DNA of 36,039 nt from a virus. Shown here in pieces: positions 14,835-18,619 of the stretch (positions are counted from its first letter, which is position 1; the number at the start of each line of letters is the position of its first letter). Location of the stretch: IMG/VR virus record IMGVR_UViG_3300023223_000123, positions 1 to 36,039 of that record, one strand, 5' to 3'. The notes under the pieces were generated by a model, which was not told where the DNA came from, did not search any database, and was given only the letters and a program-made list of their open reading frames with translations. The translations under genes and the position numbers were made by a program.

Positions 14835-15470
14835 TTAAGCCCCTGCGTGGCTAGACTTCAATATCTCAATAAGTTTCAATGCTTGACGCTTCCTTGATTG
14901 TTGGCGATCATCAGCATAAGCAGCAGCATAAGCAGCAGCATCAGCAGCATAAGCAGCAGCATAAGCAGCAGCATAAGCAGCAGCATCAGCAGCAGCTTGT
15001 CTAGCCTCTACCCATTCTTTTTTATCTATTTCTTCGCCGGTTATTTTTCTTTGGTATAAATCAATAACGGCTTGAATGGCAAGAACCCCATCATCTTTAG
15101 CGTATTGCTTAACACCTTCAAGCAGATAAACCATGAACTTATCTACTACGCCGGACAGGTCAACGCCTACCGGAATCGCCTCAGAGAACGCGATAGGCCA
15201 CCACTTTGAATCTTCTACGGAAAGACCTTCAAATATTCCGTCTTCAATTCTCGCTAGTGATCTTGGTATGCCAAATAAGCGCTCATACTCTTTGTGGTCG
15301 CTGGTATTGCCGCCGAAGTCGTGGATAGAGCAACCTACAGCGCATCCTTTCCCGTCATTCCAGTACGAGCCTTGGATAAACTGATCAAGTTCTTTGTGTT
15401 GTTGAAGGTTAGCCACGAGCTGGCCTTTCAGCTCGGGGTTGTTGTGAAATGAAACCATTGAATTATTCAT
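14835..15470 (-). CDS. Phage protein with low-complexity Ala/Tyr tail
   Basis: A 211-residue protein. Residues 1 to about 150 are globular with conserved-looking motifs (GKGCAVGCSIHDFGG, EYERLFGIPRSLARIEDGIF), seen in a family of uncharacterised phage proteins. Residues about 158-189 are units of the type AAAYA and AAADAAAYA, which would form a regular Ala helix with Tyr at fixed intervals, followed by a basic end (RQQSRKRQALKLIEIL). The corresponding DNA is a microsatellite-like repeat likely to vary in unit number. A folded leader precedes the gene. Function unknown. Confidence 0.75.
   Translation of the reverse strand: MNNSMVSFHNNPELKGQLVANLQQHKELDQFIQGSYWNDGKGCAVGCSIHDFGGNTSDHKEYERLFGIPRSLARIEDGIFEGLSVEDSKWWPIAFSEAIPVGVDLSGVVDKFMVYLLEGVKQYAKDDGVLAIQAVIDLYQRKITGEEIDKKEWVEARQAAADAAAYAAAYAAAYAADAAAYAAAYADDRQQSRKRQALKLIEILKSSHAGA
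14910..14998. repeat. Microsatellite-like repeat encoding Ala/Tyr tail
   Basis: About 90 bases of the unit GCAGCAGCATAA and its shortened variants, coding on the minus strand for Ala-Ala-Ala-Tyr-Ala-type units. The near-identical DNA units suggest replication slippage, so copy number may differ between isolates while keeping the frame, because the units are multiples of three. Confidence 0.85.
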
Positions 15471-16777: not shown

Positions 16778-16841
16778 GATTAGCTCCTGTCGTGAATTTG
16801 AAGCATACCACACAATTAATTCATCCCCGCGCTGATATTAT

Positions 16842-16869
16842 TTGACATTGTGGGGATAGGTAGTGTATT
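16842..16869 (+). promoter_or_regulatory. Promoter-like sequence with flanking palindrome, start of the large RNA
   Basis: TTGACA (16842-16847, perfect), 16 bases, TGTATT (16864-16869, 4/6). Start of transcription would fall near 16877, just before the tRNA-like element at 16879. The -35 lies within an inverted repeat ATCCCC...GGGGAT (about 16823-16857), which could be an operator. Confidence 0.5.
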
Positions 16870-16878
16870 TATCCAATA

Positions 16879-16955
16879 GTGTTAGTTGCGGCTAATAGCA
16901 GGCTGAGTGAAAAACCTCGCGCACCTTCGGGCCGGTTCAATTCCGGGCTAGCACT
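16879..16955 (+). other. tRNA-like element (degenerate) at the 5' end of the large RNA
   Basis: GTGTTAG (16879-16885) pairs with CTAGCAC (16948-16954) over 7 bases with one G-U, as an acceptor stem followed by a T. GGTTCAATTCC is an exact match to the conserved T-loop sequence, with four of five T-stem pairs; a CC-TTCG-GG hairpin sits at the variable-arm place. The D arm and anticodon arm do not fold in the standard way (no 5-pair stem with a 7-base loop), so I do not call a functional tRNA. It may be a mimic, a decayed tRNA, or a domain of the RNA. Confidence 0.4.
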
Positions 16956-17937
16956 CTTTCATATTAATACTTGCAATCTTGGGGGATTAGCTTAGAATAT
17001 TGGGTGTAGGCGTTGGCAAGCGCTTTTGAGAGAAATTAGAGAAAGGGTCAAGATGTAAACTGATTTTAGAGAGTAAGGTAAATACTTGCCGGTATTCTCT
17101 AATTTCTCCCCCAATCTCTAGGGTCAGTTTTCATCTTGGCCTTTTTTGTGTCTGTAGAATGCTGGAGTTAATCGCCAGAGTAGCAAGTAGGTTAGGGTCA
17201 AGGTATAAGGTAGCCGCTAACTGAAAACTGAAACACGCTAAAGTCCTTATACAGCACTGATCATGCTACAGACACAACCTTTCTAAAGCTTCCTTGAGTC
17301 TGTATTAATGGGTCTTGTTCAACATTCGTAATGTAAACGCTGAGACAACGTAATCGGCGGGACAGGGCCCCTTAATACAGATTCAGAGTCTATATTGATG
17401 AGAGTAAAGAGTAATTAAATCTGGCGGCTAATCATGTCGTTTGCTGAAAACCCTGAATCTACTGGATGATGGGCTAATTAAGTTTTAATTATTTGCTGTA
17501 GCTAGTTTTACAGTGTTTGGAGAACAGGTAGCTAGCTTATCTCCCCAGCACTCTCTTCAATATAGATTCCCTCCTACCCAGTGTAATTATGTGGTGGCGT
17601 CATAGTTAGTGTGTGTAACTGTCGCTAATGCGAGTGGGTGAATTCCCATGCTATGGCACCCCTTCATAATTACACTGTCAGTTCATTAGATGCAGTAACG
17701 ATTGACACTGATGAAAACGCAAACGATACAGCTCGCTCAGAGTAGATATGTCAGCCTCACGGCTCACTCACCGCCTCTTTGTTAAAGCAGTAGAAGATAA
17801 GCCCACACTGCAACTGAGTTCTAAAGTCATTACAGGGGCTGGACTGTTCAAAGACAGGAAAGATGACGAGCTAATATAACTTTGATGATTATTAGCTGCT
17901 TGATGCGACCGATCGACCGACGGATTGTATAAAGTAA

Positions 17938-17976
17938 AGGGACTCAACTCACTTCATTGTGGGTTGGGGTTCTTTT
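17938..17976 (+). terminator. Intrinsic terminator of the large RNA
   Basis: A 10-pair stem closes on loop TTCATT (17953-17958), then after one mismatch 4 more pairs, ending in TTTT. Four pairs are G-U on the plus strand, so the hairpin only works for rightward transcripts. Next, 17977-18012 has a CAACTCACT-type partial copy of the stem arm and no gene. Confidence 0.7.
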
Positions 17977-18012
17977 GCCATCAACTCACTCACTTCACTC
18001 TGGATTATATAA

Positions 18013-18204
18013 ATGCAGTATCTTATTAGAGATAAAGGGTTAAGTAATAAGGCTCATATATGGAATGAACACGCTAAAGATACTGCTTGTTTTATGTGGA
18101 CAACTGGAGGCATGAACAAGAAGAGATATTCATTGCACTCAAACTCAAAAGGAAGAGATGTATGTTTGATGTGCCAAAATAACTTGAGGTATGAACATGA
18201 GTAA
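18013..18204 (+). CDS. Small Cys-containing phage protein
   Basis: A 63-residue protein with HIWNEHAKDTACFMWTTGG and a terminal VCLMCQNNL. The single Cys followed by a CxxC suggests a small metal site. No strong ribosome site; an AT-rich TTATATAA precedes the ATG. It overlaps the HNH gene start and probably forms a unit with it. Not assigned to a named family. Confidence 0.55.
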   Translation: MQYLIRDKGLSNKAHIWNEHAKDTACFMWTTGGMNKKRYSLHSNSKGRDVCLMCQNNLRYEHE

Positions 18205-18619
18205 TGTAAATAGTGACTGGTCGTTTAAAGATCCTAATCAACCGGTAAAGTTAAAAAAGAATGGTGTTAAGAATAGAAACAAAAAAAAGAAGCGTAAAGC
18301 TAAGAAGTATGGATTGAGTGTTAGTGCAGAATTCTATAAGTCTGATGAGTGGAGAAAGATCAGATACAGAGTGTTACGTAAATACTCAGCTGAGTGTATG
18401 TGCTGTGGTCAGTCAAAGAAGCTTAATGGCATTACCGTCCATGTTGACCACATTAAGCCAAGGTCTAAATATCCAGCGCTCGCTTTAACTTTTGACAACC
18501 TGCAAATACTTTGCGAAAAGTGCAACATGGGGAAAGGCAATACTGATTGTATTGATTGGCGGCCTCCTGAGATTGATGAGGAATTAAAAATACTAATGGC
18601 TGCTAATAAAGCTATATAG
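18197..18619 (+). CDS. HNH endonuclease
   Basis: A 140-residue protein with a very basic N-terminus (KNRNKKKKRKAKKYG, about residues 26-39), then a complete HNH/McrA-type domain: CMCC (67-70), HVDHIKP with Asp84-His85, DNLQILC with Asn101, and CEKCNMGKG (106-114). It cuts double-stranded DNA using one metal, with the Cys residues binding zinc. GAGG at 18186-18189 fits ATG 18197 (7 bases) better than ATG 18191. In many phages HNH proteins assist packaging, but those sit beside the terminase; this one lies next to the large RNA and may be a homing-type nuclease. Confidence 0.85.
   Translation: MSNVNSDWSFKDPNQPVKLKKNGVKNRNKKKKRKAKKYGLSVSAEFYKSDEWRKIRYRVLRKYSAECMCCGQSKKLNGITVHVDHIKPRSKYPALALTFDNLQILCEKCNMGKGNTDCIDWRPPEIDEELKILMAANKAI

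Follow-up and report, generated by a model that had tools for sequence, protein, structure and literature searches.

Among the noncoding RNAs of phages, the lambda pR′-6S RNA-tR′ leader, of which a version in Stx phages carries tRNA genes, is subject to Q antitermination, and the put elements of phage HK022 are about 70 nt long. GOLLD and ROOL have been described as cage-forming phage RNAs that lie near tRNAs, and GOLLD consists of a conserved 3′ region and a variable 5′ region, sometimes with tRNAs in the linker (PMC12286853). In the Vibrio phage ICP1, an RNA of ~800 nt without an open reading frame (ORF) is the most abundant phage transcript (PMC7567579).

The window, that is, the whole stretch of viral DNA analysed here (36,039 nt; IMG/VR record IMGVR_UViG_3300023223_000123), contains a large structured RNA whose family resembles each of these systems in part. 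Like GOLLD, it is phage-borne and large, with a conserved 3′ and a variable 5′ part, linker tRNAs in some members and intricate pseudoknots, but the resemblance is in layout only: the family has no match to the GOLLD model, its 5′ pseudoknot usually comes with a U tract, it runs into a coding operon and its members go down to about 400 nt. ROOL is likewise a large phage RNA near tRNAs and likewise differs in the lack of a covariance-model match. The lambda leader, as generally known, shares with the family a promoter, a short transcript, a terminator-like hairpin, tRNAs in some cases and an operon between nin and late genes; in contrast to lambda, however, no homologue of antiterminator Q (PF06530, PF03589) was found in the window and nine relatives (10 records, some partial), and the intricate kissing interactions and conserved 3′ domain of the family have, to our knowledge, no precedent in lambda. 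HK022 put RNA, again from general knowledge, is comparable as an element at the 5′ end of a transcript that could act directly on polymerase, but no sequence or structural match to it was shown. The ~800-nt RNA between gp139 and gp140 of ICP1 is similar in coming from an ORF-less region of ~1 kb at an operon head of a Vibrio phage, where it is the top transcript (PMC7567579); it was rejected as a family member, with no sequence likeness and no common Rfam match. The ICP1 region itself (L270, 10080-11130, minus strand) gives an ~800-nt ORF-less RNA without an Rfam match and is another undescribed large RNA.

A folded noncoding region and its limits

A large structured noncoding RNA at 16879-17976 had been proposed in an earlier note on this DNA, and every inverted repeat listed there was found again on re-reading and folding (Table 1). 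Between 17005 and 17700 there are 12 inverted repeats (at least 16 nt, at least 80%, no G-U), whereas eight other stretches of the window, each of equal length, have 0, 0, 0, 0, 0, 1, 0 and 0. The minimum free energy (MFE) of 17005-17976 is −326.1 kcal/mol (z = −7.96, on the plus strand only; 0 of 20 dinucleotide shuffles as low), and when the genome is divided into 480-nt tiles and corrected for GC content, the two that rank highest begin at 17041 and 17281. Folding favours the plus over the minus strand by 58 kcal/mol. Imperfect positions in the six main repeats are G-U in 11 cases and A-C in 2, so the reported G-U asymmetry on the plus strand is correct. The region is also free of plausible genes, as had been stated: 16813-18013 has no ORF of at least 60 aa, and the best short ORF (17748-17876, 43 aa) was rejected as a gene, having no tblastn match and a 1-nt gap in a Vibrio homologue. 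The stretch is a real, intricately folded structured RNA, a conclusion that is well supported, by covariation in relatives (see below) and not by folding alone.

The proposed region holds, but its limits shift at both ends, to a predicted start at ~17005 and an end at ~18013, to which the conserved unit extends. The transcript probably starts near 17005, because the promoter-like site nearest to the RNA is the σ70-like sequence at 16971-16998. This promoter match is in itself no better than chance (3 found, 3.5 expected); Vibrio relatives carry TTGCAN-TATAAT in the equivalent place relative to the 5′ domain. Start sites throughout the family are predictions and not mapped ends. Upstream of the promoter, and probably outside the RNA, lies a degenerate tRNA-like cloverleaf, for which ARAGORN was negative and the Rfam tRNA-Sec model gave just 17.9 bits (E 1.9). 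A promoter module in which an inverted repeat surrounds the −35 region (CCCCACT-TTGCATTTGTGTGG-AGTGGG, then TATAAT) occurs at 1797-1850 of L264 and in about 300 Vibrio phage records; it precedes this RNA in some phages and genes directly in others (K208, 209E38-1), and is probably a regulated phage promoter.

Table 1. Positions of the RNA, its parts and its neighbours in the window.
Feature	Position	Strand	Basis or remark
Degenerate tRNA-like cloverleaf	16879-16954	+	Direct reading; acceptor GTGTTAG/CTAGCAC, T-arm-like CCGG-TTCAATT-CCGG
σ70-like promoter TTGCAA-16-TAGAAT	16971-16998	+	9/12 consensus positions; position relative to 5′ domain as in Vibrio relatives
Strand a of 5′ pseudoknot (GAGAAATTAGAGAA)	17030-17043	+	Pairs perfectly with 17095-17108 over 14 nt; every member tested has a homologous pairing
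Terminator-like hairpin	17041-17147	+	Arms about 17041-17072/17115-17145, then U6 17142-17147; encloses a′ 17095-17108
Inverted repeat arms	17042-17072/17115-17145	+	
Inverted repeat arms	17146-17161/17262-17277	+	
Inverted repeat arms	17295-17318/17362-17385	+	
Inverted repeat arms	17386-17405/17550-17569	+	
Inverted repeat arms	17579-17605/17651-17677	+	
Slot domain 1, stem GTGTCTGTAG/CTACAGACAC	17146-17277	+	At this position, tRNAs (Seahorse), one tRNA (242E40) or a degenerate tRNA (phiV208)
Slot domain 2, stem GTCTGTATTAA/TTAATACAGAT	17294-17386	+	Counterpart in L138, L279
Slot domain 3, stem GAGTCTATATTGATGAGAGT/ACTCTCTTCAATATAGATTC, branched	17386-17569	+	
Slot domain 4, closed stem with three hairpins (cloverleaf-like)	17579-17677	+	
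Possible closing strand P1′ (AACGATACA)	17722-17730	+	MFE; partner 17005-17014; weak in window
Hairpin Pa, GCAGT/ACTGC	17787-17811	+	Direct reading; loop with GCCC 17801-17804
Conserved 3′ domain core	17800-17908	+	Covariance model R1, 121 bits
Pb	17826-17830/17863-17867	+	3′ domain core
Pc	17844-17846/17855-17857	+	3′ domain core
Pd	17869-17876/17890-17897	+	3′ domain core
Pseudoknot GCCC/GGGC	17801-17804/17836-17839	+	
Kissing pair TCAAAG/CTTTGA	17848-17853/17880-17885	+	
Direct repeat X1 GGATTGTATAAA	17922-17933	+	
Terminal hairpin	17935-17979	+	
Direct repeat X2 GGATTATATAAA	18002-18013	+	
HNH endonuclease gene (neighbour outside RNA)	18191-18619	+	PF01844, E 8e-11

Covariation of the 3′ domain among phage relatives

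The earlier note had offered a divergent GOLLD or ROOL RNA and a new class as alternatives. The former is not borne out: a cmscan of the whole window against Rfam gave no match at the gathering score, a scan of 16800-18050 with E up to 5 gave chance-level matches only (miRNA, tRNA-Sec and snoRNA families), and none of the models that the note had singled out (GOLLD, ROOL, OLE, HEARO) matches the window. Rfam scans of the relatives of this RNA, at gathering or loose thresholds, gave no relevant match either, to GOLLD or otherwise. The latter alternative, a new class, is supported. No description of the family was found in open papers, subscription papers and most preprints being outside the scope of the search; the family is previously unlisted, being absent from Rfam and from the open papers searched.

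Relatives were recognised through the 3′ domain (17800-17908), which is common to thirteen other phage loci in Vibrio phages and IMG/VR contigs; blastn matches 17801-17891 to unannotated gaps in seven Vibrio phages (E 4e-7 to 2e-5), and further IMG/VR relatives were found by sequence patterns. Six sequences were used to build a covariance model (R1), which has three hairpin stems only, gives rough E-values and scores 70-128 bits on 14 sequences. R1 matched none of 80 loci surrounding terminases related to that of the window, which indicates that the RNA is not tied to the packaging genes, and the RNA is found in phages with differing packaging genes. R1 also gave no match in 369 genomes from the class of one gammaproteobacterial bin (strict filters, no positive control), nor did the plasmid collection hold a match to the RNA. 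Genome contigs scanned with GGGGCTGGANNNTTCAAAGA contained 37 matches, each judged by context to be chance.

The stems were tested for covariation in related phage and metagenome sequences, as the earlier note had suggested, and this test gave a positive result for the 3′ domain. Among 14 sequences with the window's type of 3′ domain (a-type), which represent fewer than 14 independent lineages because some are close, 97.3% of cells pair and double, compensated changes occur in 20 of 26 pairs; in the kissing helix, compensatory changes affect 6 of 6 pairs. The covariation score is 0.699, compared with 0.213 in shuffles (0 of 500 as high) and at most 0.100 in slid controls. The GCCC/GGGC and TCAAAG/CTTTGA pairings are absent from R1 and were predicted from the first six sequences, where they are invariant; eight sequences fetched later change both predicted pairings in concert. 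The kissing pair is replaced by TTGCAG/CTGCGA (L277), TTAAGG/CCTTAA (L276), ATGCAA/TTGCAT (L278), ACAAGA/TCTTGT (L279, L280), TCAACA/TGTTGA (L282) and GCACAC/GTGTGT (L281), and counterparts of hairpin Pa are CAGTA/TACTG in L138, GTGC/GCAC in 1.206.O and GCGGT/ACCGC in L277. Independent family sequences are modest in number; covariation of the 3′ domain is strong evidence of a functional RNA fold.

A 5′ pseudoknot, a variable slot and a repeat-flanked terminal hairpin

A wider, mostly Vibrio phage group has the promoter and 5′ organisation in common with the window and a 3′ part that is a-type or of types b, c or d. In this group the −10 element (TATAAT or similar) of a σ70-type promoter is followed by a small hairpin with loop a, a long hairpin that contains the complementary strand a′ and a tract of 5–8 U residues, and the hairpin interior pairs with the first 20–40 nt of the transcript. 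The window conforms, with strand a near the start pairing with a′ inside the U-tract hairpin. The longest perfect a/a′ complement of 24 members averages 7.0 nt with the member's own partner and 4.9 nt with swapped partners, and 0 of 200,000 permutations reach the observed sum (p 5e-6, the limit of the test). This permutation test on perfect complements replaced RNAduplex energies, which were too noisy. The search ranges for a and a′ were picked after examples had been seen (and were wider for the window and L283); a safeguard, in part only, is that the rule also fits seven members that came to light once it had been set out (p 2e-4), two of them using motifs seen in close relatives and each having a hand-set start.

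In most members 4–16 nt separate the predicted start from strand a and 17–25 nt separate the end of a′ from the U tract, a spacing from which the window, L283, phiV208, L084/85 and L138 deviate; strand a of the window is farther from its predicted start than in relatives. A U tract of 5–8 directly follows the long hairpin, whose arm sequences are unrelated, in 24 of 24 members. K44 and 14E30.2 keep the 5′ pseudoknot with no U tract, and neither L277 nor L281 has one where it would be expected. Termination is therefore not a function common to the whole family. In the window, the best terminator-like hairpin of the RNA is its first domain, with U6 at 17142-17147. The terminator that the earlier note had placed at 17938-17976 was not upheld: 1.206.O and L086 retain this 3′ hairpin without a U run, and it is therefore not a clear terminator.

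Between the U tract and the 3′ domain is a slot whose contents vary from tRNA genes through degenerate tRNAs and plain hairpins to nothing. The slot holds tRNA-Trp, tRNA-Arg and tRNA-Gly in Seahorse, tRNA-Met in 1.110.O, tRNA-Arg in 1.240.O and a tRNA of ambiguous identity (36.6 bits) in 242E40; those of phiV208 and L138 hold degenerate tRNA-like elements, judged by eye and not detected by Rfam. It is empty in 1.206.O, 1.148.O, L280 and L282, where the 5′ and 3′ domains are still present. The slot of the window is filled by four hairpin domains (17146-17677), which makes it the largest member; neither the slot, domain 4 included, nor the domain upstream matches a tRNA model (Rfam models, ARAGORN). 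The stem of domain 1 covaries, becoming GTATCTG/CAGATAC in 1.054.O and GTACGTG/CACGTAC in 242E40, and domains 1 and 2 both have counterparts in L138 and L279. The description of the RNA as a 1.1-kb giant is thus true of the window but not of its relatives, which are about 400–800 nt long, the excess being slot domains. A closing helix, P1, joins the extreme 5′ end with the far side of the slot and is 9 bp long and perfect in L138 (GTGGCGTGA/TCACGCCAC) and L279 (GCAGTGTAG/CTACACTGC).

In 13 of 13 loci examined, a direct repeat stands on either side of the terminal hairpin (X1 before it and X2 after it), usually in the order GGCTCCG-X1-hairpin-CACCA-X2. X varies among phages and matches inside each (8.7 of 11 positions identical versus 5.0 when swapped, p 5e-6, for nine representatives with segments placed by eye ahead of the permutation test). 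No complement of the X repeats in cis is consistent across loci. The GGCTCCG/CACCA-X module is also carried by d-type RNAs (L087 1490-1930, which is 1.226.O; L267, which is 1.240.O; L272, which is 199E37-1), and 1.226.O seemingly has a single X copy, as though the hairpin segment had been lost.

A possible cotranscriptional gate at operon heads

Upstream of the RNA the window has minus-strand genes, with a RecE-like exonuclease, an Erf-like protein, NinB and a Ref-like nuclease farther left; downstream come the HNH gene and one rightward block that continues through genes for the large terminase subunit, portal, capsid and tail. In 1.206.O the RNA has nin genes on one side and terminase on the other, if circular or permuted ends are assumed for a record that starts with terminase; in Seahorse it is just upstream of terminase and in L086 just before a portal-like gene. 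'Late leader' is not a general description, because the operons behind the RNA carry NinB/NinG-like (by eye) and other small genes in L085/L138 and mainly a tail-spike gene in 1.003.O and 1.067.O. HNH genes are also found directly downstream of the RNA in L259, L260 and L264. Other observations from these contigs are an RtcB RNA ligase-like protein, judged by eye, in L085 (8163-9383, reverse strand), which carries an a-type RNA; sub-threshold matches to int-alpA RNA in L138 (4707-4776 and 6281-6348, minus strand; 29.5 and 24.9 bits); and a protein of the window (14835-15470, minus strand) whose C terminus has a low-complexity repeat rich in alanine and tyrosine (AAYAAAYAAAYAADAAAYAAAY).

The sequences of these marine phages show an RNA fold that is conserved and strand-biased, a leader position directly ahead of an operon's first gene and an association with tRNAs, and the RNA probably helps to control phage gene expression instead of coding for protein. 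The reading preferred here, with a probability of about 0.4, is that of a noncoding leader RNA at an operon head that may act as a cotranscriptional attenuator or antiterminator gate and carry structured or tRNA cargo. Transcription would begin at the predicted promoter and the RNA would fold during synthesis; strand a would pair with a′ as a′ exits RNA polymerase and the polymerase arrives at the U tract, and this pairing would set the choice between termination at the U tract, about 95–145 nt from the start, and read-through across the slot into the operon. The 17–25 nt between a′ and the U tract in most members are about as long as the RNA hidden in polymerase, so a′ would be just outside the enzyme during synthesis of the U tract, as a decision taken cotranscriptionally would require. 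The 3′ domain may bind polymerase, the ribosome or a phage protein. The order of promoter, U-tract hairpin and operon is present in the sequences, some members lacking the U tract, and the leader may take the place in which lambda uses pR′-tR′ and Q. A bolder version, put forward tentatively and with more doubt than belief, has a family of RNA-only transcription gates in which the pseudoknot would capture its own terminator hairpin and replace a protein antiterminator, tRNA cargo would be held in an enclosed slot and the mutually matching direct repeats would allow a strand-exchange or trans-pairing step; we know of no such step in other leader RNAs.

The gate is not rated higher, and some weight is still given to a doubtful alternative, an ornate GOLLD/ROOL-type RNA that stands alone, because two phages keep the a/a′ pairing without a U tract. 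Such an RNA would accumulate late in infection and form a folded, perhaps multimeric, particle or scaffold around tRNAs or ribosomes, and its leader position would be incidental. The layout is that described for GOLLD (PMC12286853), there are two internal pseudoknots, and the apparently unrelated ~800-nt ORF-less transcript of ICP1 is the most abundant phage RNA (PMC7567579); against these points, the family matches no GOLLD or ROOL model, and b-type members enter a ribosome-binding site and ATG without a terminator, which fits a leader better. The range of slot contents from real tRNAs through degenerate ones to hairpins would also suit a tRNA-array scaffold, mainly a precursor in which phage tRNAs are displayed for processing, with the window's tRNAs decayed to hairpins and the remainder a relic. 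This is unlikely, however, as many members with an empty slot keep both flanking domains (1.206.O, 1.148.O, L280, L282) and the stems of the window are well paired and strand-biased, not decaying.

Slightly less probable again is a mobile or RNA-guided element (a ribozyme, intron-like or transposon-associated RNA) that would be linked to HNH/GIY nucleases and have its target or exchange sites in the direct repeats of the 3′ end. The covarying X1/X2 repeats around the terminal hairpin in 13/13 members, the HNH or other nuclease genes that adjoin the RNA in the window, 1.276.O, 1.178.O and K44, and the occurrence of the RNA in phages with different packaging genes are consistent with mobility, but the RNA has a conserved position and promoter, Rfam gives no match to an intron, HEARO or any other family, and 1.206.O has no annotated HNH gene beside the RNA. 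A feature of the DNA, such as chance inverted repeats, an origin or a packaging site, would account for a noncoding, repeat-rich stretch and is highly improbable, since the G-U bias, the plus-strand energy bias and the compensatory changes in the kissing loops contradict it and require an RNA.

The leader RNA favoured here would join the large, ornate, tRNA-linked RNAs, such as GOLLD, to possible transcription control at the heads of phage operons. The finding adds to the known structured RNAs a family that is missing from Rfam and is found in many Vibrio phages, and because the hosts of these phages can be cultured, the role of large phage RNAs becomes testable.
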